A DNA stretch of 40,172 nucleotides, from positions 1 to 40,172 of IMG/VR virus record IMGVR_UViG_3300012359_000032. The stretch is one strand, 5' to 3'. Both the position numbers and the translations under genes were made by a program. The notes beneath the pieces were generated by a model. It did no database searches. It worked only from the letters and a program-made list of their open reading frames with translations, and was not told where the DNA came from. Below, one piece after another: positions 1 through 40,172 of this stretch; position 1 is the first letter of the stretch; every line of letters begins with the position of its first letter. The stretch comes from a virus.

Positions 1-71
1 GCCCAGGGCGATGTCGGCCAACAGCGCTTTCAACTCGGTGATGCGTTCGTCGTCGGTGCGCACGATAATCG
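1..71. repeat. 71-bp exact direct repeat, copy 1
   Basis: These bases match 38073-38143 exactly in the same orientation. After one mismatch at base 72 the match continues for six more bases and then the two copies diverge. Both copies lie in the same reading frame of a leftward gene whose product shares the segment IIVRTDDERITELKALLADI. The repeat starts at the first base of the window, so its true left limit is unknown. It looks like the point where one genome path splits into two alternative immunity cassettes. Confidence 0.97.
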
Positions 72-165
72 CGGGGATCGTGACTTCGAGGTCATCGCGT
101 CTTTCGGCCTCGCGCTCCTCGATGTCGATCTGTTCTAGGGCGTCGTAATCCAGCTCGGTGGGCAT
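1..165 (-). CDS. Truncated early protein, paralogue or allele of the 38288 gene (partial)
   Basis: Leftward frame open from ATG at 165 to the window edge: 55 codons, no stop seen. The N-terminus (MPTELDYDALEQIDIEERE) differs from the full-length gene at 37974-38288, but from residue about 33 the two proteins are identical to the edge. The start has a GAGGAG ribosome-binding site about 9 bases upstream, inside a 20-bp stretch also shared with the other copy. Function is unknown; the N-terminus is acidic. It is the first gene of the leftward early operon in cassette A. In cassette B a 38-codon gene sits in front of the corresponding gene. Confidence 0.75.
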   Translation of the reverse strand, partial: MPTELDYDALEQIDIEEREAERRDDLEVTIPAIIVRTDDERITELKALLADIALG

Positions 166-173
166 CGGGGTCT

Positions 174-193
174 CGCTCCTCAAGTGACTGTGG
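174..193. repeat. 20-bp repeat carrying the early-operon ribosome-binding site
   Basis: Exact match to 38405-38424, same orientation. Read leftward it ends in TTGAGGAGCG, the ribosome-binding site for the first early gene in each cassette. It is the last shared sequence before the operators, which differ completely between the two cassettes. Confidence 0.85.
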
Positions 194-200
194 AGCGTAG

Positions 201-240
201 GTTAGCGCCGCTAAGTTATCATTGCAATAGCGGGACTAAG
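201..240. promoter_or_regulatory. Cassette A left operators (two 15-bp palindromes)
   Basis: Two sites, GTTAGCGCCGCTAAG (201-215) and AATAGCGGGACTAAG (226-240), follow a TTAG-N5-CTAAG consensus with start-to-start spacing of 25 bp. A third full site, CTTAGGAACGCTAAG, lies at 768-782 between the divergent repressor and cro genes, and the bases CGCTAAGTTAT are shared by 209-219 and 776-786. The position in front of the leftward early operon matches an OL-type operator. Binding by the adjacent repressor is inferred. Confidence 0.72.
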
Positions 241-261
241 GTTTTTGTAGAAATGTGAGAA

Positions 262-765
262 TTAGTTCCGGTCGGGCGCTACGGGAAGCCCCGACAGCGC
301 GCGAATCATGTTGGACACGGCAACCTGAGCGGGCGGGGGCAATAGCGTCCACATGGTGGCTATACAGATCGCCTCGGGCGGAAGATCCCCGGGCGCTAGG
401 GAGGCAAATTCAAAGTCCGGCCAGATCTCAAGCACCGGCTTATTCAGGAAGCGGGCAAAGCGCAGTTTCGCGCCCACATTGAGCTTGATATGCCCATTTA
501 GATACTGCGTGATGTTCGAGGCGTTGACGCCCCATTCGAGGGCCATCACCTTCTGCGAGATCCTGCCGCGGCCCAGACGCAGTTTCTCGGCGTCCCACAC
601 CGCGCGCAGCCGGCGCCAGTCGGTTTCGTCTATGTCCTGCACCGCGGAATCGGTAACAAGTTCTCCCGGGGTCTGGGCATCGTCGGTTCGCATAAGCAGC
701 ACTAAGGGTGCCTCGGCCATTTCCTGGCCGCGCGCAAATATCCTTAGCCGCCCTGTTGCATTCAT
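262..765 (-). CDS. CI-like repressor, cassette A
   Basis: A 167-residue protein with a helix-turn-helix around residues 68-95 (ISQKVMALEWGVNASNITQY then LNG), the classic phage repressor fold. It is divergent from the Cro-like gene at 792 with an operator between them, as in lambdoid switches. There is no visible S24 peptidase half (no Ser/Lys autocleavage dyad), so induction by RecA-style cleavage is not evident. The start is uncertain: ATG 765 abuts the operator and has no ribosome-binding site, while ATG 720 (residue 16) follows AGGAA too closely. It is unrelated in sequence to the second repressor at 38866-39216. Role: maintains lysogeny by closing the two early promoters (inferred from position and fold). 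Confidence 0.82.
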   Translation of the reverse strand: MNATGRLRIFARGQEMAEAPLVLLMRTDDAQTPGELVTDSAVQDIDETDWRRLRAVWDAEKLRLGRGRISQKVMALEWGVNASNITQYLNGHIKLNVGAKLRFARFLNKPVLEIWPDFEFASLAPGDLPPEAICIATMWTLLPPPAQVAVSNMIRALSGLPVAPDRN

Positions 766-784
766 AGCTTAGGAACGCTAAGTT
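743..784 (+). promoter_or_regulatory. Cassette A right operator and cro promoter
   Basis: Palindrome CTTAGGAACGCTAAG at 768-782 and a half-site CTTAG at 743-747, again 25 bp apart as at the left operators. A promoter-like pair lies across it: TTGCAT (756-761), 17 bp, TAAGTT (779-784). The predicted RNA start (about 791-792) coincides with the cro ATG at 792, which suggests a leaderless message. The -10 match is modest. Confidence 0.55.
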
Positions 785-791
785 ATGCGCC

Positions 792-1007
792 ATGGCGAAC
801 GCAACTCCAATGACCCGGCTTGAGCAGTGGCTCACAGAGAACGATGTGACATATGAGGAATTGGCGGAGCAGTTGGGTGTAAGTTCGCCGGCCATTTTCC
901 ATTACATTCGGGGGCGAAATCGGCCGACGGCGGACAACCTCGTGAAGCTCTCGGAGATCACGGGTATTCCCTGCAGCGAGCTGATTTCTAGCGAAGTCGC
1001 TGCGTGA
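792..1007 (+). CDS. Cro-like helix-turn-helix regulator, cassette A
   Basis: A 71-residue protein made almost entirely of an HTH_3/XRE domain: YEELAEQLGVSSPAIFHYIR at about residues 21-40 gives helices 2 and 3. The length and the divergent arrangement opposite the repressor fit Cro. There is no ribosome-binding site before ATG 792, and the operator ends only 9 bases upstream. Its stop overlaps the next start (GTGA at 1004). Expected role: turn down the repressor promoter and then the early promoters. The reading of domain and context is strong, but the exact regulatory circuit is inferred. Confidence 0.85.
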   Translation: MANATPMTRLEQWLTENDVTYEELAEQLGVSSPAIFHYIRGRNRPTADNLVKLSEITGIPCSELISSEVAA

Positions 1008-1393
1008 GCGCGGTGAAGCCTCGCTTTCGATATGACCACCGCCGCCGCTTCTGGCGGTGGAGCACTGGGCATCCCTTACGATACTGCGATATTTGCGCTG
1101 GGCCGCATATTCGCACAGGAACGTGCGGGAAATGCCAAAAGGCTAGGCGTGCGGAGATTGCCAAGGGGCGCGTGGCTTGGATGCGCTCGAAGGGTCGGCC
1201 TCGGGCTTACCCTGATTTGAGTCAAGGCGCTGTCAAATGCGTCGATTGCGCCAAGCGCGGCAGGGATCTTCCAGCAACCGAATGGGACCATCGGGATTGG
1301 CGCGAACCGCTCAAGGTAGAGCCTGTTTGCCGCCTACATAACTCCCATCGCGGCCGCGCCATGACTGCCTACGAAGCGTCGTTCGGCCAATGA
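1004..1393 (+). CDS. Putative HNH-type zinc endonuclease
   Basis: A 129-residue basic protein starting at GTG 1004, overlapping the cro stop by GTGA. It has three Cys pairs (CDIC, CGKC, then CVDC). They are followed by WDHRDWREPLKVEPVCRLHN, the pattern of the HNH/ββα-metal fold in many small phage nucleases (Asp-His, then Cys and His-Asn about 12-15 residues later). Position directly behind cro, in the first rightward transcript, fits an early role. The nuclease function is inferred from the motif; it could be a DNA-binding zinc protein without cleavage activity. It is followed convergently by a lipoprotein with an 8-bp gap. Confidence 0.6.
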   Translation: MSAVKPRFRYDHRRRFWRWSTGHPLRYCDICAGPHIRTGTCGKCQKARRAEIAKGRVAWMRSKGRPRAYPDLSQGAVKCVDCAKRGRDLPATEWDHRDWREPLKVEPVCRLHNSHRGRAMTAYEASFGQ

Positions 1394-1401
1394 CGCCTAA
1401 A

Positions 1402-1791
1402 TCACCGGTTCAGCGCCTTGGCGTATCCCTCGCATCCGACCGGACTGCCGTACCAGGTATAGCTTTTGATGGTGCCCGCATCATCGGTCGCGATTTGAAT
1501 CGTGCACTCGACCTGCACCGGCACCAGGTTCGTCGTGTTCGCCGTGCCGTAGTAGGGCGTTCCTACCACCGTCCCGTTGGCCGTGGTCATGGTGTTCACC
1601 GGCATGAATCCGCTGCCATGCACCGACCAGACGTACAGCGTATCGCCCATCGACACTCGCTGGCCGCTCGGATAGCCGAGGAAGCTCGTGGCGTCGCGAA
1701 TGTTGTGACCGATGAGGCCGTGCAGCCCCTTGTCCATGTTTTGCAGTACGCACCCCGTCAGAAGCATCACCGCCAAGATCAAGTATCGCAT
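1402..1791 (-). CDS. Small phage lipoprotein, cassette A
   Basis: A 129-residue protein with a short lipoprotein signal (MRYLILAVMLLTGC, lipobox LTGC, lipidated Cys14) and then a Thr/Gly-rich mature part. A ribosome-binding site GGGAGG precedes the ATG. It sits alone, convergent with the HNH-like gene. A lipoprotein beginning with the same MRYLI residues occupies the same place in cassette B (39751-40080), but the mature parts are unrelated. Envelope lipoproteins expressed from a lone gene next to the repressor are often lysogenic-conversion or superinfection-exclusion factors. That role is only inferred here. Confidence 0.78.
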   Translation of the reverse strand: MRYLILAVMLLTGCVLQNMDKGLHGLIGHNIRDATSFLGYPSGQRVSMGDTLYVWSVHGSGFMPVNTMTTANGTVVGTPYYGTANTTNLVPVQVECTIQIATDDAGTIKSYTWYGSPVGCEGYAKALNR

Positions 1792-1829
1792 CGCTCAACC
1801 TCCCTGTTTTTTGTGTGCCGCAACAACGC

Positions 1830-1835
1830 ATTATA
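1830..1835 (-). promoter_or_regulatory. Possible -10 box for lipoprotein A
   Basis: A perfect leftward TATAAT lies 39 bases upstream of the lipoprotein start. I see no good -35 at 16-18 bp; the leftward TTGACG at 1861-1866 is too far away (25 bp). A lone promoter would let the lipoprotein be expressed independently of the early operons. Confidence 0.35.
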
Positions 1836-1919
1836 TGCGAAACCGCATTCTGACTCTACGCGTCAAGTTGTCCGTGCGCTATCCCACAAATCCGGTAATT
1901 CGCGTCAGAAGGGGCCGAC

Positions 1920-2108
1920 ATGACGCCTGAAATCCATAGCAGCGATGACGAGCTCACCGAGTACCTGATCGACCATTGCTATAGGCACCTGCTGGCGGCC
2001 CCGACGCAAGCCGAGCAGTCGCGCTGGTTCGCGCGGATGGGCTATTACGTCGGCCGGCGGAGTCCGGAAAGAATTCGCGAAATGGAAATCAACAAAGGGC
2101 TCACATGA
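1920..2108 (+). CDS. Small acidic early protein, unknown function
   Basis: A 62-residue soluble protein beginning MTPEIHSSDDELTEYLIDHC, likely helical. Start ATG 1920 follows AGAAGGGGCC. Its end overlaps the ParB-domain gene by ATGA, so the two are translationally coupled and it belongs to the rightward replication operon. I recognise no family. Confidence 0.65.
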   Translation: MTPEIHSSDDELTEYLIDHCYRHLLAAPTQAEQSRWFARMGYYVGRRSPERIREMEINKGLT

Positions 2109-2908
2109 AATTTCACCGCTATTCGGAAATCTTCCCGTTGATCGAAGGCACCGCTCTTGATGAGTTGGTTGCGGATATCAAAGCCCATGGGCTACGCGAG
2201 AAGATTTGGCTGTACGAAGGAAAAATTCTCGACGGCCGCAATCGATTCCTTGCATGCCAGAAGGCGAAGATTGATCCGCACTATCGGAAATACACGGGCG
2301 ACGATCCGCTTGCGTTTGTCGTATCGCTGAACATTCAGCGTCGACATTTAAGCGAAAGTCAGAGAGCTATGGCAGCCTCCCGGTTCAAGGAAATGGCGAG
2401 TGCAAATTTGCACTCCGGTGATAAGACGGCAGCCGCCGCAGAAGCATTTAACGTTTCTCGCCGCAGCGTATTTCATGCGGATAAAGTGCTTGAGTCAGGG
2501 AGTAAGGCGCTTAAGCAAGCCGTGGAAAGTACTGAAATCTCAGTCTCAAAAGCCTCCACCGTCGTGAATCTGCCGAAGTCCGAGCAGCTCGCCGCCGCAA
2601 CCAAGAAGCCCGAGATGGAGTTTCCTCCGGAGACGTGGGAGCCCGACGCCGACGAAGAGGCGATGGCCGAAGAGTTCGAGAAGAATTACGCCGCCTCGCT
2701 CGACAAGATCTTAGGCGCCGACGATAAACTCGCCGCCGCTGCTGCGGAGATCAAACGTCAAGCCGCCGAGATCGCCGCGCTAAAAATGTCGCGCGACGGG
2801 TATATGAACGGGCGCAGCGAAATGGTGCGCCTCCTCAAGCGAGTACAGAACCGAAACCTGCGGCTCGAAAAGGAACTCGGGCAATTGCGCGGGATTCGCG
2901 CCGCATGA
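2105..2908 (+). CDS. ParB/Srx-domain DNA-binding protein
   Basis: A 267-residue protein. Residues about 5-100 carry a ParB N-terminal-like domain: DGRNRFLACQKA resembles the GERR-type nucleotide box, and NIQRRHLSESQRA is the following ParB-family signature. A helix-turn-helix follows (AAAEAFNVSRRSVFHADKVL), then an Ala/Glu-rich probable coiled coil from about 205 to the end. There is no ParA nearby, and the gene is coupled by ATGA to a helicase and then a primase, so a replication role is likelier than plasmid partition. The domain call is good; the role is inferred from neighbours. Confidence 0.82.
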   Translation: MKFHRYSEIFPLIEGTALDELVADIKAHGLREKIWLYEGKILDGRNRFLACQKAKIDPHYRKYTGDDPLAFVVSLNIQRRHLSESQRAMAASRFKEMASANLHSGDKTAAAAEAFNVSRRSVFHADKVLESGSKALKQAVESTEISVSKASTVVNLPKSEQLAAATKKPEMEFPPETWEPDADEEAMAEEFEKNYAASLDKILGADDKLAAAAAEIKRQAAEIAALKMSRDGYMNGRSEMVRLLKRVQNRNLRLEKELGQLRGIRAA

Positions 2909-4428
2909 ATGGCGATATGTTCATCGGTCAGGAGAAGCGCGATTTTCCCCCGCCGCGCGCATTCCAGGTGACGGCGCACGAAGCGCTGCGCAACGGCATC
3001 CGTGCGGGACATCGGCGGCAACTCTTGGTCGCGCCCACCGGCGCCGGCAAGACTTTTTTAGGATTGCGGGTCGCGCACGAAGCGCTCGCCAAAGGCAAGC
3101 GTGCGCTCTTCGTGTGTGACCGGACGGCGCTCATCAATCAAACGAGCGGGCGCGCGGATTCCTACGGGCTCACCGCGCACGGCATCGTCCAGGCGAATCA
3201 TTCGCGCCGCGATCCGTATCAGCCGCTGCAGATCGCGAGCATCCAGACCATTCAGGCGCGGGGGTATTGGCCCGACGCCGATGTGATCGTGATCGATGAG
3301 GCGCACACCCAATACACTGCGTGGAAAGATCACCTGAAAACCACGACCGCCGCCGTGGTGGGATTGACCGCAACCCCCTGTTCGCGGGGCTTAGGATTGC
3401 ATTTCACGCATATGGTCAATGCGGCGACCATGCATGACCTCACGGAGATTGGTGTGCTGGTACCGCTGCGGATCCTATCCTGCACGACGCCCGACATGAA
3501 AGGGGCGGAAACGAGCGGGGGAGAATGGACCGATCGGGCCGCCGCAGAACGGGAAACACAGATCATTGGCGATGTGGTGCAAGAGTGGGTCGCGCGCGCG
3601 GAGAATCGCAAGACCATCGCCTTTGGCGCGAGCATTGCCTATTGCGAGGAATTGGCGAGGCGGTTCAACGCCGCAGGGATCGTGGCGGATATTTTCACCT
3701 CGGAGACTCCACCGGCAGAACGGGAAGTGCTCTTGGCGGAATTTCGCAAGCCCGATTCGGCCATCCGGATCCTGATCAGCGTCGAAGCGTTGGCCAAAGG
3801 ATTCGATGTGGAGGACATCGGCTGCGTGATCGATGCGCGCCCCTTGCGTAAGTCCTTCTCCACCGCCGTGCAAATGTGGGGCCGGGGGCTTCGCTCCTCG
3901 CCTGACACCGGCAAACAGGACTGCTTGCTCCTCGATCACTCGGGCAACATCGTACGATTCTTGAAGGATTTTACGGACATTTACTTCAATGGCTTTCAGT
4001 CGCTCGACATGTCGGAGAAATTGGACGCGACCGCACGCACGGATGAAGGCGGAGAGGCGAGCGGGTGTCCCAAGTGTCACTACAAGCCCTTCTACAAGCG
4101 CTGCATGGCCTGCGGCTTTGAGACATCGGCCGAATCGATGGTGGACGAGGCGCCAGGTGAGATGCGTGAGATCCGCATTGGCAAGGCCGTCATCGCGACC
4201 GATAAGTACAATCTCTACCAGCAACTCTGCGCCTACGCGCGCGAGTCGAGCAAGACCGAGAAGCAAGCCGGCCGCGCGTGGCATCTGTACCAGGACATCA
4301 CCGGGGAGAAGCCCCCGAAAGCGTGGCGATTTGATTCCACGCCGAACACAGAGGTGACGCCCGGGACACTTCGCAAGATCAAATCGCTTCGTATCGCCTG
4401 GATCAAGGGCCGCAAGGTGGCCGCATGA
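2905..4428 (+). CDS. DEAH-type superfamily 2 DNA helicase
   Basis: 507 residues with all the main SF2 motifs: APTGAGKT (about 43-50, Walker A), DEAH (131-134), TAT (155-157), and QMWGRGLR (323-330, motif VI with arginine fingers). After the helicase core comes a four-Cys zinc ribbon at 388-403 (CPKC, then CMAC) and a C-terminal domain of about 100 residues. It overlaps the ParB-domain gene upstream and the primase gene downstream by ATGA. The family unwinds DNA with ATP. Here it is the likely replicative or replication-initiation helicase of the phage. Confidence 0.92.
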   Translation: MNGDMFIGQEKRDFPPPRAFQVTAHEALRNGIRAGHRRQLLVAPTGAGKTFLGLRVAHEALAKGKRALFVCDRTALINQTSGRADSYGLTAHGIVQANHSRRDPYQPLQIASIQTIQARGYWPDADVIVIDEAHTQYTAWKDHLKTTTAAVVGLTATPCSRGLGLHFTHMVNAATMHDLTEIGVLVPLRILSCTTPDMKGAETSGGEWTDRAAAERETQIIGDVVQEWVARAENRKTIAFGASIAYCEELARRFNAAGIVADIFTSETPPAEREVLLAEFRKPDSAIRILISVEALAKGFDVEDIGCVIDARPLRKSFSTAVQMWGRGLRSSPDTGKQDCLLLDHSGNIVRFLKDFTDIYFNGFQSLDMSEKLDATARTDEGGEASGCPKCHYKPFYKRCMACGFETSAESMVDEAPGEMREIRIGKAVIATDKYNLYQQLCAYARESSKTEKQAGRAWHLYQDITGEKPPKAWRFDSTPNTEVTPGTLRKIKSLRIAWIKGRKVAA

Positions 4429-5249
4429 CCCTCACCGATACGTTGGCCGCAGAAGGGATGATACCGCCCAACCGGATCATACCCGGGCGCTGGCTGCGCT
4501 TCCCGGGAGTGGGGAAGTCCAAATCCAATCGTTCGGGGTGGTGTCGGATGATTACCGAGACGCTCGCGATCTACGGCGATTGGTCAAGCGGGCTCACGGG
4601 ACAGTGGCGTGATGATGCGCACCGCGACGATGAGACGACCGCGCGATTGTTGCAAGAAGCCCGGGCGCGAGAACGGCAATTCGCCGCCGACCAGCGCCGG
4701 CACCAGCAAGAGGGCGCACGGCGCGCGCACGAGCTCTTGGAGGCGGCCATGCCGCTCACCCATCCCTATCTGCAGAGGAAAGGATTTTCGGCGCTCACCG
4801 GCCTTGTCTTTGGCGAACACCTACTCATTCCGGTGAGGGATGCGCGCACTCAACAATTGATCAGCCTTCAGCAGATCAGCCCGGACGGCGAGAAGCGATT
4901 CTTACATGGCGCCCGCGCTCGAGGCGGCATCCATCGCTTGGGTTCCGGACCGAAGAGCTTTTTATGTGAGGGCTATGCCACAGGAATGAGCTTGTACGAG
5001 GCGGCTCGCCGACTGCACACCGGACCTTCCGTGATCGTGTGCTTTAGCGCCGGCAACATTGAGATCGTTGCTCCCTTATTCCCTGGCGCGCTTGTTTGTG
5101 CCGATCACGATGCATCGGGGACGGGCGAGCGAATCGCGCGAAAGACCGGACTACCGTGGGTGATGCCGCCACAAGTGGATACGGACTTCAACGATCTGCA
5201 CCGAACCGAAGGGCTGCATGCCGTGGTGGGGGTGCTGCGCGGGAAGTGA
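4425..5249 (+). CDS. Toprim-domain primase-like protein
   Basis: 274 residues. The C-terminal Toprim fold has the catalytic Glu in FLCEGYATGMSL (E182) and the metal-binding pair in CADHDASG (D227, D229), followed by TDFNDLH. The N-terminal part is short, with a Trp-rich region and a charged helix; it lacks the CHC2 zinc finger of DnaG-type primases. This resembles phage and plasmid Toprim proteins that work beside a separate helicase. ATGA overlap with the helicase gene supports joint function in RNA primer synthesis. Activity without a clear zinc domain is inferred. Confidence 0.85.
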   Translation: MTLTDTLAAEGMIPPNRIIPGRWLRFPGVGKSKSNRSGWCRMITETLAIYGDWSSGLTGQWRDDAHRDDETTARLLQEARARERQFAADQRRHQQEGARRAHELLEAAMPLTHPYLQRKGFSALTGLVFGEHLLIPVRDARTQQLISLQQISPDGEKRFLHGARARGGIHRLGSGPKSFLCEGYATGMSLYEAARRLHTGPSVIVCFSAGNIEIVAPLFPGALVCADHDASGTGERIARKTGLPWVMPPQVDTDFNDLHRTEGLHAVVGVLRGK

Positions 5250-5475
5250 ATATTCAAGCACTCGGGCGGATGGACATTGTTTAACGCTTGCGCCCGAGGA
5301 AGACCCCCTACAAGTGGATCAGATCTGAAACAGGGGAAAGGGCGGCGAAGCTAGCACCCTTGATCGAACGGCTGGCGGGTCATGCGGCTCCGGCAGGCAT
5401 GTGAAGGCAGACCGGTTCATCTGGGGATGGGCTAGGTCTGCCCACCAACAGGCATGACAGAACTGAGACGCATGA
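5250..5475. other. Structured non-coding stretch in the replication operon
   Basis: This 226-bp gap has no convincing gene. It holds two clean inverted repeats. One is CTCGGGCG (5261-5268) with CGCCCGAG (5291-5298), loop 22. The other is GCAGACC (5407-5413) with GGTCTGC (5435-5441), loop 21. Neither is followed by a T-run, so they are not ordinary terminators. The stretch follows the primase gene and could hold an origin, an attenuator or a small RNA; sequence alone does not decide. Confidence 0.5.
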
Positions 5476-29157: not shown

Positions 29158-29402
29158 TCCGCACTCCTATCAGACTGTGATGTTCGCACCCAGCCGAATT
29201 GCTTCCAGCGGCACAGCCCGCGCTTCTCCAATCGCCTGAGGATTCTGGACGCGGCGGCGCCAGCGCCTTGTGCCTTCATAGAATGGCCGGGCCAAATGCA
29301 ATCCGCCACATAGGAGGCATAGGCACGGCCAGCGGACAGGCACTGCATGGCGCGCGCCTCAGCCACATCTAGCGTGACCCGTTGCTCAGGCTTGAGGCGC
29401 AC
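29154..29402 (-). CDS. Winged-helix-like small protein
   Basis: 82 residues from GTG 29402, ATGA overlap at its end. The C-terminal half (GAAASRILRRLEKRGLCRWK) looks like the recognition helix and wing of a MarR/winged-helix domain, preceded by a helical region with LDVAEARAMQCLSAGRAYAS. A phage transcriptional modulator is possible; this is inferred from pattern only. Confidence 0.62.
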   Translation of the reverse strand: MRLKPEQRVTLDVAEARAMQCLSAGRAYASYVADCIWPGHSMKAQGAGAAASRILRRLEKRGLCRWKQFGWVRTSQSDRSAE

Positions 29403-29580
29403 GGGTATTCCAGCTTCGAGCGGCCAGCCGTGAATTCGAGCCAGTGACTTGCGGGTTCACCATGCAGTTGTCCTCGATACAACTGATCATGCGCTTTGCC
29501 GGGCCGCCGCCATGCCACGGCTCAATATGGGGCGGCTTGCCGCAGAACGGACATGCCAGCAATTTGAGCTTAGTCTCCAT
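29386..29580 (-). CDS. Lar-like restriction-alleviation / zinc-ribbon protein
   Basis: 64 residues from ATG 29580. It follows the Lar-family pattern: LLACPFCGKPPHIEP, then a Cys pair (CIEDNC), NPQVTG, and the C-terminal AARSWNTRA. Lar-like phage proteins have been linked to weakening of type I restriction. Many members are simply annotated by similarity, so activity here is unproven. It lies in a run of small zinc proteins. Confidence 0.75.
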   Translation of the reverse strand: METKLKLLACPFCGKPPHIEPWHGGGPAKRMISCIEDNCMVNPQVTGSNSRLAARSWNTRAPQA

Positions 29581-29848
29581 GCTTAACCCCTCCGCTGTCC
29601 GTTGAGCGCGGTTCGCCATCGACGCGCATATGGTCTTCTGGCGTCTCAGGCAGCCACATCGACCCTTCTTCGGGGTAGTCAGCGCACCAGACGTAATAGC
29701 CAGGCGGCATCATCTCGCCGGGGCTGCTGAGGTCCTCGCGTTCGTCCGCGCAGTAAGAAATACAGACCTCGGTCTCGTCCTCCCCGTCGACGAAATCCAT
29801 AAGGCGCTTGATCTGGTAGCCGTTCAGTCGAATGATGTCCTCACTCAT
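29570..29848 (-). CDS. Acidic small protein, unknown function
   Basis: 92 residues from ATG 29848, with GGAGG nine bases upstream. MSEDIIRLNGYQIKRLMDFV begins the protein, followed by a strongly acidic middle (DGEDETEVCISY) and W-x-x-x-TPED near the end. The last residues (STDSGG) are encoded by a short DNA repeat that also carries the next gene's ribosome-binding site. No family recognised. Confidence 0.7.
   Translation of the reverse strand: MSEDIIRLNGYQIKRLMDFVDGEDETEVCISYCADEREDLSSPGEMMPPGYYVWCADYPEEGSMWLPETPEDHMRVDGEPRSTDSGGVKHGD
29589..29602. repeat. 14-bp gene-boundary repeat, copy 1
   Basis: CCTCCGCTGTCCGT here and again at 29857-29870. Read leftward it gives ACGGACAGCGGAGG, which encodes the TDSGG tail of one protein and supplies the ribosome-binding site of the next. 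It marks a module boundary in the early operon. Confidence 0.8.
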
Positions 29849-30176
29849 GCTCTGATCCTCCGCTGTCCGTAGATGGCTGGTGGTGCATCCACTTGCTGAC
29901 GTGGTCCAATTTGTACGCGGCCCACGAGTGCACATGGTCCTTCTTGATGTCGCCGGCATTGCAAAGCAGGATCATGGCGGCGCGCACGTCGCCCATTTCT
30001 TTCGCCAGAGCCTCGCGATTGATGATGCGGTCTGCGATAGGCAACGTCGGATCGAATGAGTTATAGCCGTGGCGCAGGATCTTGCCGACGGCGACGATGA
30101 CCTCGCCGCATTCCTCGGCCAGCAGCGCCAGCCGCTCGGCTTCGTCGGGGCTCAGATTGTTGAAGTGATCAGCCAT
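29841..30176 (-). CDS. MazG-like all-alpha NTP pyrophosphatase
   Basis: 111 residues from ATG 30176 (GAGGA upstream). The metal-binding EExxE motif is EECGE at 21-25 and the matching ExxD is EMGD at 60-63 within REALAKEMGDVRAA, the layout of all-alpha NTP pyrophosphatases. Such enzymes hydrolyse nucleoside triphosphates, and phage versions may balance the nucleotide pool or blunt host stringent signalling. Motif evidence is good; substrate unknown. Confidence 0.75.
   Translation of the reverse strand: MADHFNNLSPDEAERLALLAEECGEVIVAVGKILRHGYNSFDPTLPIADRIINREALAKEMGDVRAAMILLCNAGDIKKDHVHSWAAYKLDHVSKWMHHQPSTDSGGSEHE
29857..29870. repeat. 14-bp gene-boundary repeat, copy 2
   Basis: Second copy of CCTCCGCTGTCCGT. 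It encodes the STDSGG tail of the MazG-like protein and the ribosome-binding site of the 29848 gene. Confidence 0.8.
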
Positions 30177-30516
30177 GCTCAGTTCCTCCATCGGCAGGAA
30201 AATAATGGTGATATTTGGCGTTCGGATACGGGCTGATCAGTTTTCGAATCTCGACCGGCTTAATCTCAACTAGCCTGCCGTCCGTGAATTTCGCAACCCA
30301 TTCCCACCAAATATTGGTCTTCGTGTCGAAGTGATGGAAGTGCAGCATTCCGTGAAAACTGACGGGATCGCCGTCGAGCAGTAATTTGCCGTCCTCGGTA
30401 ATGACATATTTATCCAGGCAGCACTCGCGATCCTTGGTTTGGAAATGGCGCGTGCCGGGATCTGGGCCGACGGTTGGCAACTCCGCCCTGCATTCGATGT
30501 CGTCAAACATCCCCAT
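30169..30516 (-). CDS. Small conserved phage protein, unknown function
   Basis: 115 residues from ATG 30516; ATG 30510 is equally possible given GGAGAG at 30521-30526. It begins MGMFDDIECRAELP, a common opening of small phage proteins, followed by LLLDGDPVSFHGMLHFHHF and a C-terminal HHYFPADGG tail. Rich in His and Asp. Overlaps neighbours on both sides. No known activity. Confidence 0.7.
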   Translation of the reverse strand: MGMFDDIECRAELPTVGPDPGTRHFQTKDRECCLDKYVITEDGKLLLDGDPVSFHGMLHFHHFDTKTNIWWEWVAKFTDGRLVEIKPVEIRKLISPYPNAKYHHYFPADGGTEHG

Positions 30517-32396: not shown

Positions 32397-32933
32397 TCAC
32401 CACTTGAAACCGAAATCGCGACGTTTGATCTTCGCCATGCGGCCGTCAGGGTGATGCCAAACGAGACCCTCCATATGCTGGTCTTGCAGGTAGTCGTGGA
32501 TATCCTCGAACGTGCGGGGGTTGCCACGGATCGATTCGTTGCCATGACGCACCAGGACGTGCGCAGGGAAGCCGCCTTTATTCCCCTGGACCTTCGGTCC
32601 CATCAATTCGTAGGTACCGCTAGGCTGGCTGTGGAACGCCTCGCGATGCCATTGGTCCTCGGTGGACTCGGTGACAGGAACCCATCCAACCGTCTTACCG
32701 GTCTCGTCGTCAAAATCGGCTTGCTCGAAGTCTGCCGGCGCAGACTGACCGGGCTTCAACTCCCGACGCTTGAACAGTTTCCCATCACGGATCAGGCAGC
32801 ATGTGCCGTCGTTCTTGATCGTCGGCACGCCTTCACCGTCACGCACCCACTCGCAACCTGCCTTCCATTCTGGCGTAACTAGCGCAGGTTGTTTGGACAT
32901 GTCGCGCACGAAGATCGTTGGTATTTTCTTCAA
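32397..32933 (-). CDS. Ligase-like nucleotidyltransferase (DUF5565-like)
   Basis: 178 residues from a TTG start at 32933, supported by a TTGA overlap and by the conserved MKKIPTIFVRD opening. It carries the covalent nucleotidyltransferase motifs: TIKNDGT (KxDG, Lys40), YELMGPK (motif III), EGLVWHHPDG (motif IV) and AKIKRRDFG (motif V). The protein is only the adenylation core, with no OB domain. Such proteins join or cap nucleic acid ends, and RNA ligases of this compact kind repair tRNA cut by host defences. The specific substrate is not determined. Confidence 0.75.
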   Translation of the reverse strand: MKKIPTIFVRDMSKQPALVTPEWKAGCEWVRDGEGVPTIKNDGTCCLIRDGKLFKRRELKPGQSAPADFEQADFDDETGKTVGWVPVTESTEDQWHREAFHSQPSGTYELMGPKVQGNKGGFPAHVLVRHGNESIRGNPRTFEDIHDYLQDQHMEGLVWHHPDGRMAKIKRRDFGFKW

Positions 32934-34466: not shown

Positions 34467-34987
34467 GGGATGCCCTTCAGCCGCTTGACGATCCATCGGC
34501 GCATGCGCTGCCAGCGCTCTGCGGGTGTATCGCTGGTTCGGTATTTGCGCGTCTCACCGTATCGGACCCCGTGACATATGGTGCCGTCGTCCTCCCAGTG
34601 CCAGCGGTCGCCCTCGTCATTCTCGTACATGATCTCGCGCGCGAGCATGTCCTTGATCCCGAATAGCGGCCCCATGGCCTCGGCAAATTCATATTCGTCC
34701 GGTTCGTCATCCGGTGCGCCAGTGGTGCAGAACTCGGGCGGAATAGTCATGTTCCTGTGCACCGCCAATGCACCAAGGGAACAGACCGACCCGGTGCTGG
34801 TATCCAGGAGCGCGCCAGTCACGATCTCGCGGCTGGGGAGCGCCTCAAGTGCTTGGTAGAGTTCCCATAGGAGCGCCTGTCCCTGGCGACCCGCGATGCA
34901 GCGGCGGACGTTGGCTTGCCAGCCGTACACGCGCAACATGGCATCTGCGTCGCAATCGTCACCGTCGCTATAACCTGATCGGCTCAT
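34463..34987 (-). CDS. Acidic phage protein, unknown function
   Basis: 174 residues from ATG 34987 (AAAGGGA upstream); the frame is open further back without protein character. The N-terminus is acidic (SGYSDGDDCDADAMLR), and the C-terminal third has EGDRWHWEDDGTICHGVRYG and ends in a basic helix (WQRMRRWIVKRLKG). Overlaps the following gene by ATGA. No family recognised. Confidence 0.68.
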   Translation of the reverse strand: MSRSGYSDGDDCDADAMLRVYGWQANVRRCIAGRQGQALLWELYQALEALPSREIVTGALLDTSTGSVCSLGALAVHRNMTIPPEFCTTGAPDDEPDEYEFAEAMGPLFGIKDMLAREIMYENDEGDRWHWEDDGTICHGVRYGETRKYRTSDTPAERWQRMRRWIVKRLKGIP

Positions 34988-35012
34988 TTGGCTGTTCCCT
35001 TTGCAGACTGTG

Positions 35013-35495
35013 TCACGCGGCCTCCAAATCGAGCGCCGGCTGTATCGCGTCAGGCATCTCGGCCGGCAACATCTGAAAGGCGTATAAGCCACCCTTGGTG
35101 AACCCGACGTGGCGAAAGCCAGCCTTCCGGTAGCAGCGGCCCGGATCGCGCTTGCGGCGAGTTTTGGAGGCATCCACGAAGCTCACCATGCCAAGGTCGG
35201 GCACGGCAGGCCAGCACGCACGCGTCGCCGCCACGGCCTCCCTAATCAGTTCTGACGACAGTCCCGCGCCCTCATTGCGAAATAGACTGTTCACCCAGGC
35301 GCCCGGCCACGCGTGTTTGACGAACTCGGCGAACGGCCACGAGCTCGTCCATAACGCTTTGATGTCTCGTGTCTTGAGTACGATGCAGCGGCCGGGCGGC
35401 ACGAACTGCGGCGAGCCTACCTTGCGCCGGTTGTAATGGCGGTCGGCCAGAGGCAGAGCATCAGTGTCGAATCGATGTGACATTATCCATCTCAT
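35013..35495 (-). CDS. GNAT-like / Mom-like acyltransferase-type phage protein
   Basis: 160 residues from ATG 35495 (ATGA overlap with the previous stop; ATG 35483 also possible). The pattern ADRHYNRRKVGSPQFVPPGR, WVNSLFRNEGAGLSSELIRE, FVDASKTRRKRDPGRCYRKA and GFRHVGFTKGG is that of a widespread phage family with a GNAT-like fold. It is reminiscent of the Mom DNA-modification protein of Mu. If so, it might modify phage DNA bases against restriction. The family recognition is fair, the activity is inferred. Confidence 0.6.
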   Translation of the reverse strand: MRWIMSHRFDTDALPLADRHYNRRKVGSPQFVPPGRCIVLKTRDIKALWTSSWPFAEFVKHAWPGAWVNSLFRNEGAGLSSELIREAVAATRACWPAVPDLGMVSFVDASKTRRKRDPGRCYRKAGFRHVGFTKGGLYAFQMLPAEMPDAIQPALDLEAA

Positions 35496-35806
35496 GCTTT
35501 CAGGCTTTTCCCGATTCGAATGCACCCCGCCTCAAACCGCGCCGTGATCGTGCGTAGAACGCCCTCGGCGTGCGCCAAGCGAATCTCTTCCTTCGTGTAG
35601 CCCTCGATATGCGTTCGCCCATCGATCGCATCGTGGCAAGCGCTGCAGGCATCCGCACATAAGAGGTCATTCGGCTTGATGCCCATGCCGGCGCCTAGGC
35701 TTACAGAGCGGTAGTGAGCCGCGACCGTGGTCTCTGCGTTGCCGTTGCAGATAGGCAGCCGAACCCGACAGGGAGCGCCGCGGGCAGCTTCGGTCAAGAT
35801 GCTCAC
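35492..35806 (-). CDS. YbcO/DUF1364-type putative nuclease
   Basis: 104 residues from GTG 35806 (GTGA overlap). ARGAPCRVRLPICNGNAETT, VAAHYRS, then DACSACHDAIDGR and RLAHAEGVLRT are the diagnostic phrases of DUF1364, known from YbcO of the DLP12 prophage. The Cys/His set probably binds zinc in an HNH-like site. It sits beside the recombination genes bet and the DUF1367-like gene, as in lambdoid nin-type regions. Confidence 0.85.
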   Translation of the reverse strand: MSILTEAARGAPCRVRLPICNGNAETTVAAHYRSVSLGAGMGIKPNDLLCADACSACHDAIDGRTHIEGYTKEEIRLAHAEGVLRTITARFEAGCIRIGKSLKA

Positions 35807-36237
35807 GCGGCAAGCCCCACGATCTTCTGAATCTCGTATTCAACTTCGCGTCGCGTGATGCCCGGTAGAATATCCTCGGTCACCACATCGCACACGCGGG
35901 ACCAAAGTTCCTGGAATTCGGGCTCATCGAGCGAATCGAAATCGATGGAGTTCGCGACGTGGAATATCTCGCCCGTCTTTTGCGCGACGATTGAGGTGCT
36001 ATGGCCGGTGCGAATCTTGAGATAATCCGAGACTTGCTCCTTGCTGCGGAAAAGTTCCGTGTTGTCCCGGATCATTTCGCATAGCACCCAGTAGCGCCCC
36101 AAGGTCTTCTGCGAGCGCGGCCGAACCACTTCGGCGCGGTAAGTTTCGCCCACCTTGAAGCGCTTGGCCTTCTCGACGCTCATGTCGTCGGCCGGCGTGA
36201 AGCCGCCAAGAGTCTTGCGAAGGAGCATCTTAGCCAT
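35803..36237 (-). CDS. DUF1367-like recombination-region protein
   Basis: 144 residues from ATG 36237, which overlaps the bet stop by 8 bases. MAKMLLRKTLGGFTPADDMS, RSQKTLGRYWVLCEMIRDNT and the C-terminal TRREVEYEIQKIVG resemble DUF1367 phage proteins, usually found between recombination and replication genes. No catalytic motif is clear. The GTGA overlap with the YbcO-like gene supports joint expression. Confidence 0.72.
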   Translation of the reverse strand: MAKMLLRKTLGGFTPADDMSVEKAKRFKVGETYRAEVVRPRSQKTLGRYWVLCEMIRDNTELFRSKEQVSDYLKIRTGHSTSIVAQKTGEIFHVANSIDFDSLDEPEFQELWSRVCDVVTEDILPGITRREVEYEIQKIVGLAA

Positions 36238-37093
36238 CACTCGGCGCCTTGATGGCAAGGTACTTGCGATAGTTAGCCTTGCTGATGATTTTGTCATGCG
36301 CCAACTTATCGAGCACGACGGTGAAGAGTTCAGGGAACATGCTCAGTTCCGTATTGACCTCGCGAAGCTGCGCAGCGATCTCATGCTCTTCCTTGTCCTG
36401 GTTCAGCAAGTCGGTGAAGGTACCGATCCACTTGTTGACCAGATCGCTATCGACCTGCGAGGTATCGGGACGTGGTCCCAAGTCCACTTGACGCACCACT
36501 GTCTCATCGGACATCTGACCTTCCATCTCCTCCATCGTCGGCACGCCGCCGAGTTCATCCGGGAACGCCTCGCGAAGCCCTGCGGCCTCGGCGCATTTGG
36601 TGAGCATCTGCAAGGGCGCTTTCGACCAGCGCTGATTCGGCTTGCCCTCTTTCAGCGCGACATATTCGGTAAAGAGCACCTTGACCGGATATTCCGCCTT
36701 GACGTTCGCCACCGGATTCCAGCGATAGATAGTCATCTCGCAAAAGGCCGGCGCCGTGACGCCACCACAGTCGAACGCCTCGCCGTAGACCGGGACACTG
36801 TGCCCCAGGTATTGCCCCGTGCGATGCGCGGTGGTGCGGTACTCGTAGATACCGGGAAGCACTACATCACGCCACACGTAATCGGCGCCTTGCTTCACCT
36901 TCATCGGCACGATGTGGCAGGGCTTCTTCATCGGATCGAGCTTGCGGGCCAAGCAGTAGTCCCACACCATCAGCACCGATTCGCCCGTGGCGCCGGGGTA
37001 GAGATTGTTCATCAGCGTGCGCCACTGGCCTTCGCTGATATTGCGGCGGGCCACAGCGGGCGGCAGGTTGACCATTTCGACTACTGCGTTCAT
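36230..37093 (-). CDS. bet: Phage recombination protein Bet (RecT/Redβ annealase)
   Basis: 287 residues, close to lambda Bet (261). MVWDYCLARKLDPMKKPCHI, GIYEYRTTAHRTGQYLGHSV and APLQMLTKCAEAAGLREAFP then DELGG are hallmark phrases of the RecT/Bet family. It anneals complementary single strands in phage recombination and strand-annealing repair. No Exo partner is recognisable next to it; the early operon may use another nuclease. The last 100 residues, with acidic MSDETVV and helical DLLNQDKEEHEI, are less conserved. Confidence 0.92.
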   Translation of the reverse strand: MNAVVEMVNLPPAVARRNISEGQWRTLMNNLYPGATGESVLMVWDYCLARKLDPMKKPCHIVPMKVKQGADYVWRDVVLPGIYEYRTTAHRTGQYLGHSVPVYGEAFDCGGVTAPAFCEMTIYRWNPVANVKAEYPVKVLFTEYVALKEGKPNQRWSKAPLQMLTKCAEAAGLREAFPDELGGVPTMEEMEGQMSDETVVRQVDLGPRPDTSQVDSDLVNKWIGTFTDLLNQDKEEHEIAAQLREVNTELSMFPELFTVVLDKLAHDKIISKANYRKYLAIKAPSDG

Positions 37094-37272
37094 ATTTGCT
37101 TCCTCAAAAGGGCCGGTAGTTCATCGGCGGATAAATCGAACTGCGCTCGATCGGCGAGCTGCGAGCGCAAGCGCGCGTTATCCGCGGTGAGTTGGCGAAC
37201 ATGCCGACGGAGCTCGGGACTGGCCTTGGCGAGTTCGATGCTCGCGCGCAAGAGAGTCTCGGTCTCACTCAT
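37090..37272 (-). CDS. Small coiled-coil protein
   Basis: 60 residues from ATG 37272 (ATGA overlap). MSETETLLRASIELAKASPE then LRRHVRQLTADNARLRSQLA gives a heptad pattern over most of the length. It overlaps the bet start by ATGA. Unknown function. Confidence 0.65.
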   Translation of the reverse strand: MSETETLLRASIELAKASPELRRHVRQLTADNARLRSQLADRAQFDLSADELPALLRKQI

Positions 37273-37448
37273 AGCCGTAGTGCTCCCGCAGTGCGTTCGC
37301 TCACCATTCCCCATTTGCGCAAATTCGCATCCCGCACACGCATGGCTTTTCGATCGCGCCATTTGGCGTACGCCTCGCAGGCTTTGATGCCACCGACGAT
37401 GACCAGGCCGACGGCGAACGGGGAGAGCAGGGCGATCCAGGGGTTCAA
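37269..37448 (-). CDS. 59-residue membrane protein starting at TTG
   Basis: The TTG at 37448 overlaps the previous stop as TTGA, and the end overlaps the next start as ATGA. NPWIALLSPFAVGLVIVGGI is a membrane helix followed by a basic tail (WRDRKAMRVRDANLRKWG). The rare TTG start is supported by the overlap and by a good peptide. Function unknown. Confidence 0.6.
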   Translation of the reverse strand: MNPWIALLSPFAVGLVIVGGIKACEAYAKWRDRKAMRVRDANLRKWGMVSERTAGALRL

Positions 37449-37786
37449 GATTGCACCGCTTGCGCCGCCGCTTTAATCTGTGCATCGTTCATGATCTTGC
37501 CGTGCCAGCGTAGAGACTCGATCATCCAGTCGTAGCCGCAGAATCCCTTTGACGCTTTCACCAATTTGCGCTTCTCGCCTCCAGTGACTTCCCGGACGCT
37601 TACGCAAGCTGTCCAGCCGTCGCCGAAGTTGTAGTAGTGCTGAGCCTTGATCAGCGCCTCAAACTTGGCGCGTGTGGCTTTAGCGTCGCTCACAGTGAGA
37701 ACGCGCACATATTTGTTGCCATCGCCGGACCACCGGCCATTCCAAGAATTGTTGTTCGGCATCGACAATTCAAATGCTACGTGCAT
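37445..37786 (-). CDS. Conserved-looking phage protein, unknown function
   Basis: 113 residues from ATG 37786. MPNNNSWNGRWSGDGNKYVR, HYYNFGDGWTACVSVREVTG, then SKGFCGYDWMIESLRWHGKI is a pattern I have seen in early regions of other tailed phages. It has many aromatic residues and no enzyme motif. Overlaps the previous gene by 10 bases. Confidence 0.75.
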   Translation of the reverse strand: MHVAFELSMPNNNSWNGRWSGDGNKYVRVLTVSDAKATRAKFEALIKAQHYYNFGDGWTACVSVREVTGGEKRKLVKASKGFCGYDWMIESLRWHGKIMNDAQIKAAAQAVQS

Positions 37787-37977
37787 AGATGTCCCCTTCC
37801 CGCGTCCCGCAATTCCTGATTGAATTCCTCGCGCGATTGCTCATCGTCGATGACCTGATGGCGCGGGACGTACTTGAGGTACGTATAGGCTTGCTCTGCC
37901 TCGATCTGGCACGCATCACACAACCGGCCTTCATCGCCGCAAGGCTGGTGGTTGTCGAGCACGTTGGGGCAAATCAT
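37777..37977 (-). CDS. Zinc-finger small protein
   Basis: 66 residues from ATG 37977 (ATGA overlap). MICPNVLDNHQPCGDEGRLC then DACQIEAEQAY contains four Cys with zinc-ribbon spacing. The rest is an acidic helix. Likely a small nucleic-acid or protein adaptor; role unknown. Confidence 0.68.
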   Translation of the reverse strand: MICPNVLDNHQPCGDEGRLCDACQIEAEQAYTYLKYVPRHQVIDDEQSREEFNQELRDAGRGHLCT

Positions 37978-38288
37978 ATGCCCCGTCCCGCGCGCGCAAC
38001 ACGTCGAACTTCCCTGACGTAGCCGAGCATCGCACCGCGTAAGCCCAGCGCGGGCTCGAGCATCATGTCGGCGCCCAGGGCGATGTCGGCCAACAGCGCT
38101 TTCAACTCGGTGATGCGTTCGTCGTCGGTGCGCACGATAATCGGGGGGATGATCGGGGCGATCACGGTAGCCTCAAGGTCATCGCGCGCTTCGTCGGCGA
38201 GCATCGTGTTGATGTCCGCGTTATCGATGTCGCGCTCATAGGCTTCGTCGCGGTCGAACTCGCGCTCCTCCACGCCATCGGCGCTCAT
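37974..38288 (-). CDS. Acidic early protein (full-length copy of the partial gene at 1-165)
   Basis: 104 residues from ATG 38288. The N-terminal third is very acidic (VEEREFDRDEAYERDIDNAD), the middle is PIIPPIIVRTDDERITELKA, and the end is basic (VREVRRVARAGRG). From the IIVRTDDERIT segment the DNA is identical to the start of this window. The upstream part differs between the two copies. Function unknown; it heads the leftward operon after a 38-codon gene. Confidence 0.72.
   Translation of the reverse strand: MSADGVEEREFDRDEAYERDIDNADINTMLADEARDDLEATVIAPIIPPIIVRTDDERITELKALLADIALGADMMLEPALGLRGAMLGYVREVRRVARAGRGI
38073..38143. repeat. 71-bp exact direct repeat, copy 2
   Basis: Identical to bases 1-71, same orientation and same reading frame in the leftward gene. 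Cassette B continues to the right of this copy, cassette A to the right of copy 1. Confidence 0.97.
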
Positions 38289-38401
38289 CGCGCACCTTCC
38301 GCCACGTGCTTCGAGCGCATCGTCGGGACTTTCTGCCAGCGCTGCAGGCGTTGGGCCTTCGCTTTGCGGGCGGCGCGAATCTGTCGTTTGGCTTGCTTCA
38401 T
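38285..38401 (-). CDS. 38-residue very basic peptide
   Basis: ATG 38401 has GAGGAG at seven bases, inside the shared 20-bp element, and the stop overlaps the next start as ATGA. MKQAKRQIRAARKAKAQRLQ begins an almost purely Arg/Lys/Ala/Gln helix. It is the first gene of the leftward operon in cassette B and has no counterpart in cassette A. It could bind nucleic acid (N-antiterminator-like in size and charge), which is only a guess. Confidence 0.6.
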   Translation of the reverse strand: MKQAKRQIRAARKAKAQRLQRWQKVPTMRSKHVAEGAR

Positions 38402-38404
38402 GTT

Positions 38405-38424
38405 CGCTCCTCAAGTGACTGTGG
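38405..38424. repeat. 20-bp repeat carrying the early-operon ribosome-binding site, copy 2
   Basis: Exact match to 174-193. It carries the ribosome-binding site of the first leftward gene. Confidence 0.85.
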
Positions 38425-38471
38425 GGATAGTTTTCCCCACTTAGAGCGGCATGTCAAGGAATATTTTCCCC
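38423..38471 (-). promoter_or_regulatory. Cassette B left operators and leftward early promoter
   Basis: Two operator-like sites, GGGGATAGTTTTCCCC (38423-38438) and AAGGAATATTTTCCCC (38456-38471). A leftward TTGACA (38452-38457) lies between them, with a possible -10 AAACTA/AACTAT (38427-38433) inside the first site. Thus repressor bound here would cover the promoter. The same GGGGA-N6-TCCCC pattern recurs at 39217-39277 by the repressor gene. Confidence 0.7.
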
Positions 38472-38531
38472 ATGTAGGGCAAATGCTCGTATGATCGAGC
38501 CCGAGCCGATTTCCGGCCACAGGAGCGTCAG

Positions 38532-38678
38532 ATGTTGTTGAAACTACGGAATTGGATGCTGAGGGTACTGGCCGGCCGATCGCCGGTCATGTTGAATGTG
38601 TCGGTTCAGCAGGGAATTATCATCATCCCATCGGGGACCAAACGGGCGCTAATTTACGGGAACACAATTACGCCGTAG
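38532..38678 (+). CDS. 48-residue protein in cassette B
   Basis: ATG 38532 has AGGAG seven bases upstream and runs to TAG 38678. MLLKLRNWMLRVLAGRSPVM is amphipathic and basic, then SVQQGIIIIPSGTKRALIYG is beta-like. It is the only rightward gene in this part and overlaps the end of the leftward zinc-ribbon gene by 11 bases. A good ribosome-binding site supports it; function unknown. Confidence 0.5.
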   Translation: MLLKLRNWMLRVLAGRSPVMLNVSVQQGIIIIPSGTKRALIYGNTITP

Positions 38679-38850
38679 CCCAAGTCTCCGGCACCACGTC
38701 CTGCTTGTTCCATACATGCAGTTGATTGCATGCGGAGCAGCGCATCTGATTATTGCTGAGCGTCGCACTCTCGAATGAGCCTTTATCGAAGGCCATTCCG
38801 GTCGGTATGAGTTTCTGCGTCGTGGGACATTTGATCAGTAGCATGGGCAT
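38668..38850 (-). CDS. Zinc-ribbon protein
   Basis: 60 residues. MLLIKCPTTQKLIPTGMAFD opens a compact fold with CPTT and, later, MRCSACNQLHVW, giving a Cys set for one zinc; VVPETW closes it. This is a recognisable small family of bacterial and phage zinc-ribbon proteins of unknown role. Start ATG 38850 or 38844. It lies downstream of repressor B and may share its transcript in the lysogen. Confidence 0.75.
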   Translation of the reverse strand: MPMLLIKCPTTQKLIPTGMAFDKGSFESATLSNNQMRCSACNQLHVWNKQDVVPETWATA

Positions 38851-38865
38851 CGCTTACTCCTTGCG

Positions 38866-39216
38866 TTAACGATTGCTGTGCGCAGCCATTTCGGCCACTT
38901 CGAGAATGCTGTTGCGGCCCTTTTCGTTGGCTTTCTCCCAAAATTCTAAGAGCTTGGGGATATTTTGATCGGTCTTATCTGGCCGAAATGTCGGAGACAA
39001 TAATTCTTCAGCTGTGCGGTCAAAACCCTTGGCGATGGCCTCTACCTTGTCAGGGCGAGGGTCAGTCTGCCCCCGCAAATAGTTAGTCACTGTCTTGCGG
39101 TCAACGGGGGGTTTCGATTGTTTGGCGATTGCAGCCCCACTCAACCCGTATTTTGCCTTCAGCAATTTCAGGCTTTGAGCCAGAGTGTGACGGGGTAGTG
39201 GGCGTTTTTCGGCCAT
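38866..39216 (-). CDS. CI-like repressor, cassette B
   Basis: 116 residues from ATG 39216. An XRE helix-turn-helix spans about residues 14-60 (KLLKAKYGLSGAAIAKQSKP, VDRKTVTNYLRGQTDPRPDK), followed by a helical C-terminus (IPKLLEFWEKANEKGRNSIL). No peptidase half is present. An operator begins one base upstream of the start. It is divergent from Cro B. It is not homologous to repressor A in any segment I can align, so the two cassettes should have different immunity. Confidence 0.85.
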   Translation of the reverse strand: MAEKRPLPRHTLAQSLKLLKAKYGLSGAAIAKQSKPPVDRKTVTNYLRGQTDPRPDKVEAIAKGFDRTAEELLSPTFRPDKTDQNIPKLLEFWEKANEKGRNSILEVAEMAAHSNR

Positions 39217-39282
39217 AGGGAATTCTTTCCCATTTGGCGGGGAAAGTGCTCCTTGACAAATGGGGAAATATATCCCCAATAT
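39217..39282. promoter_or_regulatory. Cassette B right operators and cro promoter
   Basis: Three sites at 22-23 bp spacing: AGGGAATTCTTTCCCA (39217-39232), the half-conserved GGGGAAAGTGCTCCTT (39239-39254), and GGGGAAATATATCCCC (39262-39277). A rightward TTGACA (39253-39258) and CAATAT (39277-39282, spacing 18) form a promoter overlapping the last two sites. The predicted RNA start (about 39289-39290) falls at the ATG 39290. The three-site spacing resembles lambda OR1-OR3. Confidence 0.75.
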
Positions 39283-39289
39283 GTCGGGT

Positions 39290-39496
39290 ATGGCGCTACT
39301 CGAAACCACCAGGTCCCTATTGGCCGATATCACAAATTCAGGGACGAGCTTGCGTGCGATCGCGCTCGAATTCGAAGGAGAGATTGAATACGACTGGCTG
39401 AAACGGTTCGCGACCGGGGAAATTAAGGACCCCTCCGTGAATCGCGTGCAAGTGCTGCACGATTGCCTGCTCCGTAAGTCCCATACGGCCGCCTAG
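39290..39496 (+). CDS. Cro-like regulator, cassette B
   Basis: 68 residues from ATG 39290; ATG 39281 and 39260 are in frame but lie within the -10 or operator. SLRAIALEFEGEIEYDWLKR then FATGEIKDPSVNRVQVLHDC gives a small helix-turn-helix protein. Divergence from the repressor across a three-site operator supports Cro. No ribosome-binding site. Its TAG abuts the next start codon. Confidence 0.78.
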   Translation: MALLETTRSLLADITNSGTSLRAIALEFEGEIEYDWLKRFATGEIKDPSVNRVQVLHDCLLRKSHTAA

Positions 39497-39745
39497 GTGG
39501 CCAAACCCATCAAAGATTTCAGCCTGGCGCTCTCGGAGTCGATCCATGCTGCGCTTGAGGCTGAATCCGAAGCCTTCGGCAAAACCATGCAGGGTCTTGC
39601 GAGGGAAATTCTTCAGGACTGGGCGAATCGTAGAGCGCATGCCTACAAGGTATATGCCCGCCGGATAATCGCCAACGGGAACCAGACTGAACTCCCCGGT
39701 TTTGAGACAGGAGACGACGGGATGCGACGGGAAGGCCGCAAATGA
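39497..39745 (+). CDS. Ribbon-helix-helix-like regulator
   Basis: 82 residues from GTG 39497, immediately after the cro stop. KDFSLALSESIHAALEAESE (strand plus helix 1), then AFGKTMQGLAREILQDWANR (helix 2), resembles the Arc/MetJ ribbon-helix-helix fold; the C-terminus is basic. It takes the position that HNH-like 1004-1393 holds in cassette A and is convergent with a lipoprotein. Likely DNA-binding, possibly CII-like in role; uncertain. Confidence 0.65.
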   Translation: MAKPIKDFSLALSESIHAALEAESEAFGKTMQGLAREILQDWANRRAHAYKVYARRIIANGNQTELPGFETGDDGMRREGRK

Positions 39746-39750
39746 GCCTA

Positions 39751-40080
39751 TTAGCGCCGCTGATCCTCAATGATCGTAGTCGGATCGCGTCGCAGGTCCG
39801 GCCGTTTGTACTCCGGGTCATTCGCATCCAGGCAACTGAAGATCAGATTCATCGCCCGATAATCGAGGCTATAGCCGGTCTCCTCGCTGCGAATCGTCAT
39901 GTGCTTGCCGAGCTTGTCGCAATAGGCATTCGCCGCTTTCAATGCGGCAATGGCTTCTCCGGAATGGGTACCGCGCGCGGCCCCGGTGATCATGTAACTG
40001 TCTTTGCCGGCCGGGACTATCTCAGATGTGGTCACGCACGCAGCGAGGGTGAGGGCGGCGGCGTAGATCAGATATCGCAT
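39751..40080 (-). CDS. Small phage lipoprotein, cassette B
   Basis: 109 residues from ATG 40080. MRYLIYAAALTLAACVTTSE carries a lipoprotein signal with lipobox LAAC (Cys15). The mature part (AIAALKAANAYCDKLGKHMT) has one further Cys pair site (FSCLD). It is convergent with the ribbon-helix-helix gene, mirroring lipoprotein A. AGGAG lies before the start. Envelope function, possibly conversion or exclusion, is inferred from position only. Confidence 0.78.
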   Translation of the reverse strand: MRYLIYAAALTLAACVTTSEIVPAGKDSYMITGAARGTHSGEAIAALKAANAYCDKLGKHMTIRSEETGYSLDYRAMNLIFSCLDANDPEYKRPDLRRDPTTIIEDQRR

Positions 40081-40145
40081 CAGCGTCTCCTTGCTTGGAT
40101 TCGTCCTTGTGTCGGCTCGATCCGGCCGATCTTGAGGGGGTTTTT

Positions 40146-40172
40146 TGTGCGCTCGCACATGTCAAATTATAC
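40146..40172 (-). promoter_or_regulatory. Palindrome and -10 box at the right edge
   Basis: Perfect palindromic arms TGTGCG/CGCACA at 40146-40159 and a leftward TATAAT at 40166-40171 on the last bases. The -35 region would lie outside the window. This is the expected promoter region of lipoprotein B, equivalent to 1830-1860 in cassette A. Confidence 0.4.

Follow-up and report, generated by a model that had tools for sequence, protein, structure and literature searches.

The viral contig analysed here very probably holds two heteroimmune alleles of one immunity locus, brought together when the assembler followed one path through the graph of a P22/Sf6-like phage population assembled as a circle. 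The window, 40,172 bp long, is the entire IMG/VR virus record IMGVR_UViG_3300012359_000032, which is classed as linear; the ends of the window are consequently the ends of the contig. The path would lead through allele A (72-1836), a common backbone (about 1837-38143) and allele B (38144-40172). The population would then comprise a genome A of ~38.07 kb, in which position 38072 is joined to position 1, and a genome B of ~38.34 kb, in which position 40172 is joined to about 1837; we infer both the circularity and the right join at about 1837. No near nucleotide match to the window was found in phage nucleotide databases.

Phage type and common backbone

The genes for portal, scaffold, coat, connector and terminase are of the P22/Sf6-like podovirus type, and the homologous portal, scaffold and coat proteins place the phage in this group. 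The closest annotated portals (54-55%) are found in Manatee Spring phages, Rhodoferax phage P26218 and EBPR podovirus 1. The leftward arm, common to both alleles, encodes a RecT-type single-strand annealing protein (36230-37093, minus strand) and a NinB-like protein. The rightward arm begins with o1920 (1920-2108, plus strand), the first gene of the common backbone on the right-hand side of the cassette, and continues with a ParB-like protein, a helicase and a primase (2105-5249, plus strand).

No tyrosine or serine integrase or recombinase was recognised in the genome, an absence compatible as well with a plasmid prophage or with an enzyme that escaped recognition. The ParB-like protein (2105-2908, plus strand), encoded in a genome with no recognised integrase, makes a plasmid-prophage life style possible. 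Lysogeny itself is predicted solely from the repressor/cro anatomy. Three further genes of the minus strand deserve mention: an RNA ligase in the leftward early operon (32397-32933; phrog_14301, E 8e-54, with a Pfam RLIG1 match), possibly a counter-defence repair enzyme, a Lar-like restriction alleviation protein (phrog_599, 29386-29619) and a MazG-type pyrophosphohydrolase (29841-30191). In L007, a gene with long Gly/Ser/Tyr-Gly repeats (1447-2190) lies directly upstream of the gene for a RecT that shares 77% identity with that of the window.

Two cassettes of parallel order and unrelated parts

Both cassettes present a leftward repressor, a rightward cro-like gene, a small rightward gene and a leftward lipoprotein gene starting MRYLI, together with palindromic operators, an order that the original prediction had described correctly. 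The lambdoid type is recognisable in repressor and cro genes that diverge and encode HTH domains (only weakly so in repressor A) and in related candidate operator palindromes at the left promoter and in the repressor/cro gap of each cassette. The parallel holds for gene order and is broken by two short ORFs of cassette B: one of 60 aa, containing Cys, downstream of the repressor (38668-38850, minus strand), and one of 38 codons (MKQAKRQ...) that heads the left operon (38285-38401, minus strand). Both are missing from cassette A; an ORF similar to the second occurs in record L030 (IMGVR_UViG_3300036773_000258).

In cassette A, the candidate left operator is the palindrome TTAGCGCCGCTAA (202-214), accompanied by a second, weaker site at 227-239, and the candidate right operator TTAGGAACGCTAA (769-781) is placed between repressor and cro. 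A-type sites with at most 2 mismatches are more numerous than in shuffled sequences, yet 4 of the 6 fall outside the cassette. Repressor A (262-765, minus strand, 167 aa) has a weak Xre-type HTH match (PHROG 0.0013, Pfam below cut-off); no relatives were found in viral contigs, and a search of phages gave one weak match. The cro gene (792-1007, plus strand, 71 aa) carries an HTH_3 domain (E 3.7e-12) and is followed by a small Cys/His-rich gene (1004-1393, plus strand) that has a partial relative in L014. The convergent lipoprotein (1402-1791, minus strand) belongs to phrog_3716, with relatives of no known function in Yersinia and Rhizobium phages.

In cassette B, the candidate left operator GGGGATAGTTTTCCCC (38423-38438) has a weaker second site at 38456-38471, and the candidate right operator GGGGAAATATATCCCC (39262-39277), directly downstream of TTGACA, has a weaker second site at 39217-39232. 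Palindromes of this type with at most 3 mismatches are confined to cassette B, the window-wide count being weak when taken alone (17/100 shuffles reach 4). TTGACA -35 boxes of both the left and the right promoter adjoin the palindromes and are kept in L030, where all four operator positions are conserved and a fifth is present. Repressor B (38866-39216, minus strand, 116 aa) has an HTH_31/HTH_3 domain; among viral contigs it has one real relative (L030, found again as L124) and one distant one. The cro gene (39260-39496, plus strand, 78 aa; phrog_9425) is followed by a small gene with a weak ribbon-helix-helix (RHH) match (39497-39745, plus strand), for which L046 has a weak relative. No relatives were found for the convergent lipoprotein (39751-40080, minus strand).

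The claim that regulators and operators are unrelated between the cassettes withstood comparison, the repressors showing no significant similarity. Homology was likewise not detected between the small rightward genes (that of A has no library match, that of B the weak RHH match), and the lipoproteins did not align beyond their MRYLI start. Library searches found no peptidase domain in either repressor.

In the well-known lambdoid switch, repressor and cro have the roles proposed here. Each repressor would bind its own palindromic operators over the left early promoter and in the repressor/cro gap, thereby silencing both early operons in the lysogen and barring phages with the same operators; cro would oppose the repressor in each cassette. 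Since the operators and the DNA-binding proteins differ, we predict that A and B are heteroimmune; like repression itself, this is an expectation drawn from sequence. The apparent lack of a peptidase domain in both repressors makes induction by an antirepressor a possibility, by analogy with the Gifsy prophages (PMC3121763). The co-varying lipoprotein, whose gene has a minus-strand TATAAT box of its own in each cassette (1830-1835 and 40166-40171), is probably a surface factor expressed in the lysogen.

The contig ends and the proposed joining of the alleles

Bases 1-71 are an exact copy of 38073-38143, the sole long repeat in the 40,172 bp; when it is extended to 78/38150, 77 of 78 positions are identical. 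A 44-bp piece of the repeat, used as an exact probe, was found in no other viral contig. As had been proposed, both copies lie in frame within the same leftward gene. The first copy forms the contig start, inside the leftward gene of allele A that this start truncates (1-183, minus strand, ATG at 165). The second copy lies within the leftward gene that is intact in allele B (MSADGVEERE..., 37974-38287, minus strand, within the ORF 37974-38414), where it would belong to the common backbone and mark the branch point. When 38072 is joined to 1, positions 37974-38072 complete the frame of the truncated gene in one uninterrupted ORF, with a C-terminus exactly as in allele B.

Headful packaging, suggested by portal and scaffold genes of the P22/Sf6-like type, would speak for a single allele in one circularly permuted genome with ordinary terminal redundancy. 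We rejected this explanation, which we give next to no probability: terminal redundancy would yield identical copies, whereas the sequences that follow the two repeat copies are unrelated and the 40,172-bp contig has no end-to-end repeat.

The divergence that had been placed at base 72 holds for the nucleotides, where the match past the repeat is not above that of shuffled sequences (82/1000 as high), and not strictly for the two left proteins, which stay recognisably alike a little further (RDDLE.T...IIVRTDDER). After the 71-bp repeat, the next longest exact match between the cassettes is an element with the ribosome-binding site, CTTGAGGAGCGA, at 173-193 in A and 38404-38424 in B (both minus strand). 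The original prediction had rightly found it in both cassettes, with a length of 20 bp where we find 21.

The right flanks of both cassettes contain GTTTTTTGTG, found in the window solely at 1806 and 40140, and in both the TATAAT box of the lipoprotein gene follows. The contig ends 1 bp past the corresponding ATTATA, which starts 26 bases after GTTTTTTGTG and matches positions 1830-1835 of A. The similarity of the two right ends was equalled by 3/1000 shuffles. Because base 1 lies in the left gene with in-frame closure and the right ends match, the contig ends would be the points at which allele and backbone rejoin. To say that the locus documents exchange "at a defined boundary" goes too far, since the left edge falls inside a homologous gene and the right edge is one that we only infer.

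In simulations, assemblers break at branches and leave end overlaps equal to the largest k (PMC10914622). As with COBRA breakpoints (PMC10914622), one contig end here equals another stretch, at what would be a graph branch; unlike them, the window has the 71-bp overlap at its left end alone and none at its right. A two-circle de Bruijn model has its diverging node at base 1 and 38073 with k=71, a single parameter chosen to fit and not a common largest k, and takes the right join as an input. It is consistent with two alleles and is not proof of them. Against the two-allele reading stands the lack of a k-long overlap between the right end and the sequence from 1837 onward; under this reading one contig end must have been trimmed or dropped.

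The order of the cassettes could also be taken literally, as a true tandem in one genome in which B is followed by A after a short stretch missing from the assembly and a duplicated start of the left gene. Both cassettes do stand on one contig with intact reading frames, and assembly would break at a repeat of 71 bp or more in any case. We nevertheless consider a tandem unlikely, as it requires a second copy of the left gene, 100% identical in its known part and unseen in the remainder, as well as contig ends at matching places of both cassettes, and as the left operon of A would extend into B in antisense orientation. Furthermore, no examined relative has two cassettes at this slot. If a tandem were true, two complete, unrelated switches would give the lysogen simultaneous immunity to two groups.

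Relatives, significance and known systems

A search with a helicase profile found 61 loci whose helicase is more than 50% identical to that of the window. A leftward HTH repressor was found upstream of the helicase in 24 of them, mostly 1.2-2.8 kb away, and two cassettes in none. The custom HTH profile used for this detection is incomplete, failing to pick up the repressors known from L004, L005 and AP1, and was seeded with both window repressors, whose own scores are thus not independent. Annotation or reading frames reveal a single-cassette layout in Acidovorax phage AP1, MW202545, L004 and L005: in relatives, the leftward arm and the ParB-like/helicase arm are separated by one repressor/cro cassette. 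In L046, repressor, cro, RHH gene, o1920 homologue, ParB and helicase are contiguous, with the o1920 homologue adjoining the cro/RHH genes, the order that would be predicted for B joined at about 1837. In L042, a cro A-like gene lies directly upstream of ParB/helicase. This contig (1-5740), which encodes the closest helicase (74%), is assigned to a Gemmatimonadetes MAG and resembles a piece of phage DNA that was either binned with that MAG or is integrated in it.

L030 provides the closest comparison for cassette B. It shares with the window a P22-like portal (62% identical), the B-type repressor (53-59%), cro (75%) and operator set, and a left gene homologous at its C-terminus; unlike the window, it has a single cassette, different replication genes and no lipoprotein that we could see. 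No A cassette was present in the stretch of L030 that was read, and the whole record has one HTH_3 match. The B-type cassette beside another replication module indicates that the cassette occurs on different backbones. L030 thereby lends something to the view that the window is a chimera of two phage species with only the left gene segment in common, the B end deriving from the other backbone, as does the lack of overlap between the B right end and the backbone here. A chimera is nonetheless quite improbable, since the B right end matches that of A in the 10-mer GTTTTTTGTG and the TATAAT box, L046 predicts the join to o1920, and the known common segment amounts to 71 bp at 100%.

Two alleles of one locus, as the original prediction had preferred, is consequently the best-supported reading, through the in-frame closure, the homologous right ends, the single-cassette relatives and the occurrence of B alone in L030; the missing k-long overlap at the right end leaves it unproven. 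If it is true, the contig offers a culture-free snapshot of one phage population with one backbone and two immunity groups. Two such groups would be expected if rarity lets a phage superinfect the lysogens of its siblings. It would also be a caution for virus catalogues, in which contigs can hold both alleles of one locus and mimic double-immunity phages. The main value lies in this polymorphism within a population and in the assembly caution, the kind of variation being long known.

Immunity-cassette exchange itself is textbook biology and not new. The exchange of nonhomologous immunity segments among lambda, 434 and 21 is classical, with hybrids such as lambda imm434 and lambda imm21 (PMC9119081). 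As in the window, nonhomologous repressor/cro/operator segments of lambdoid phages swap at one locus of genomes otherwise held in common (PMC9119081). Unlike the lambdoid hybrids, the window would represent two alleles within one environmental P22/Sf6-like assembly, and it has a ParB-like/helicase/primase right arm and a linked lipoprotein slot. The Gifsy prophages, whose immunity regions vary from strain to strain, are siblings that are heteroimmune and have different operator sites (PMC3121763), as would hold for A and B; their repressors and antirepressors have been characterised, whereas the regulators of the window are known from sequence.
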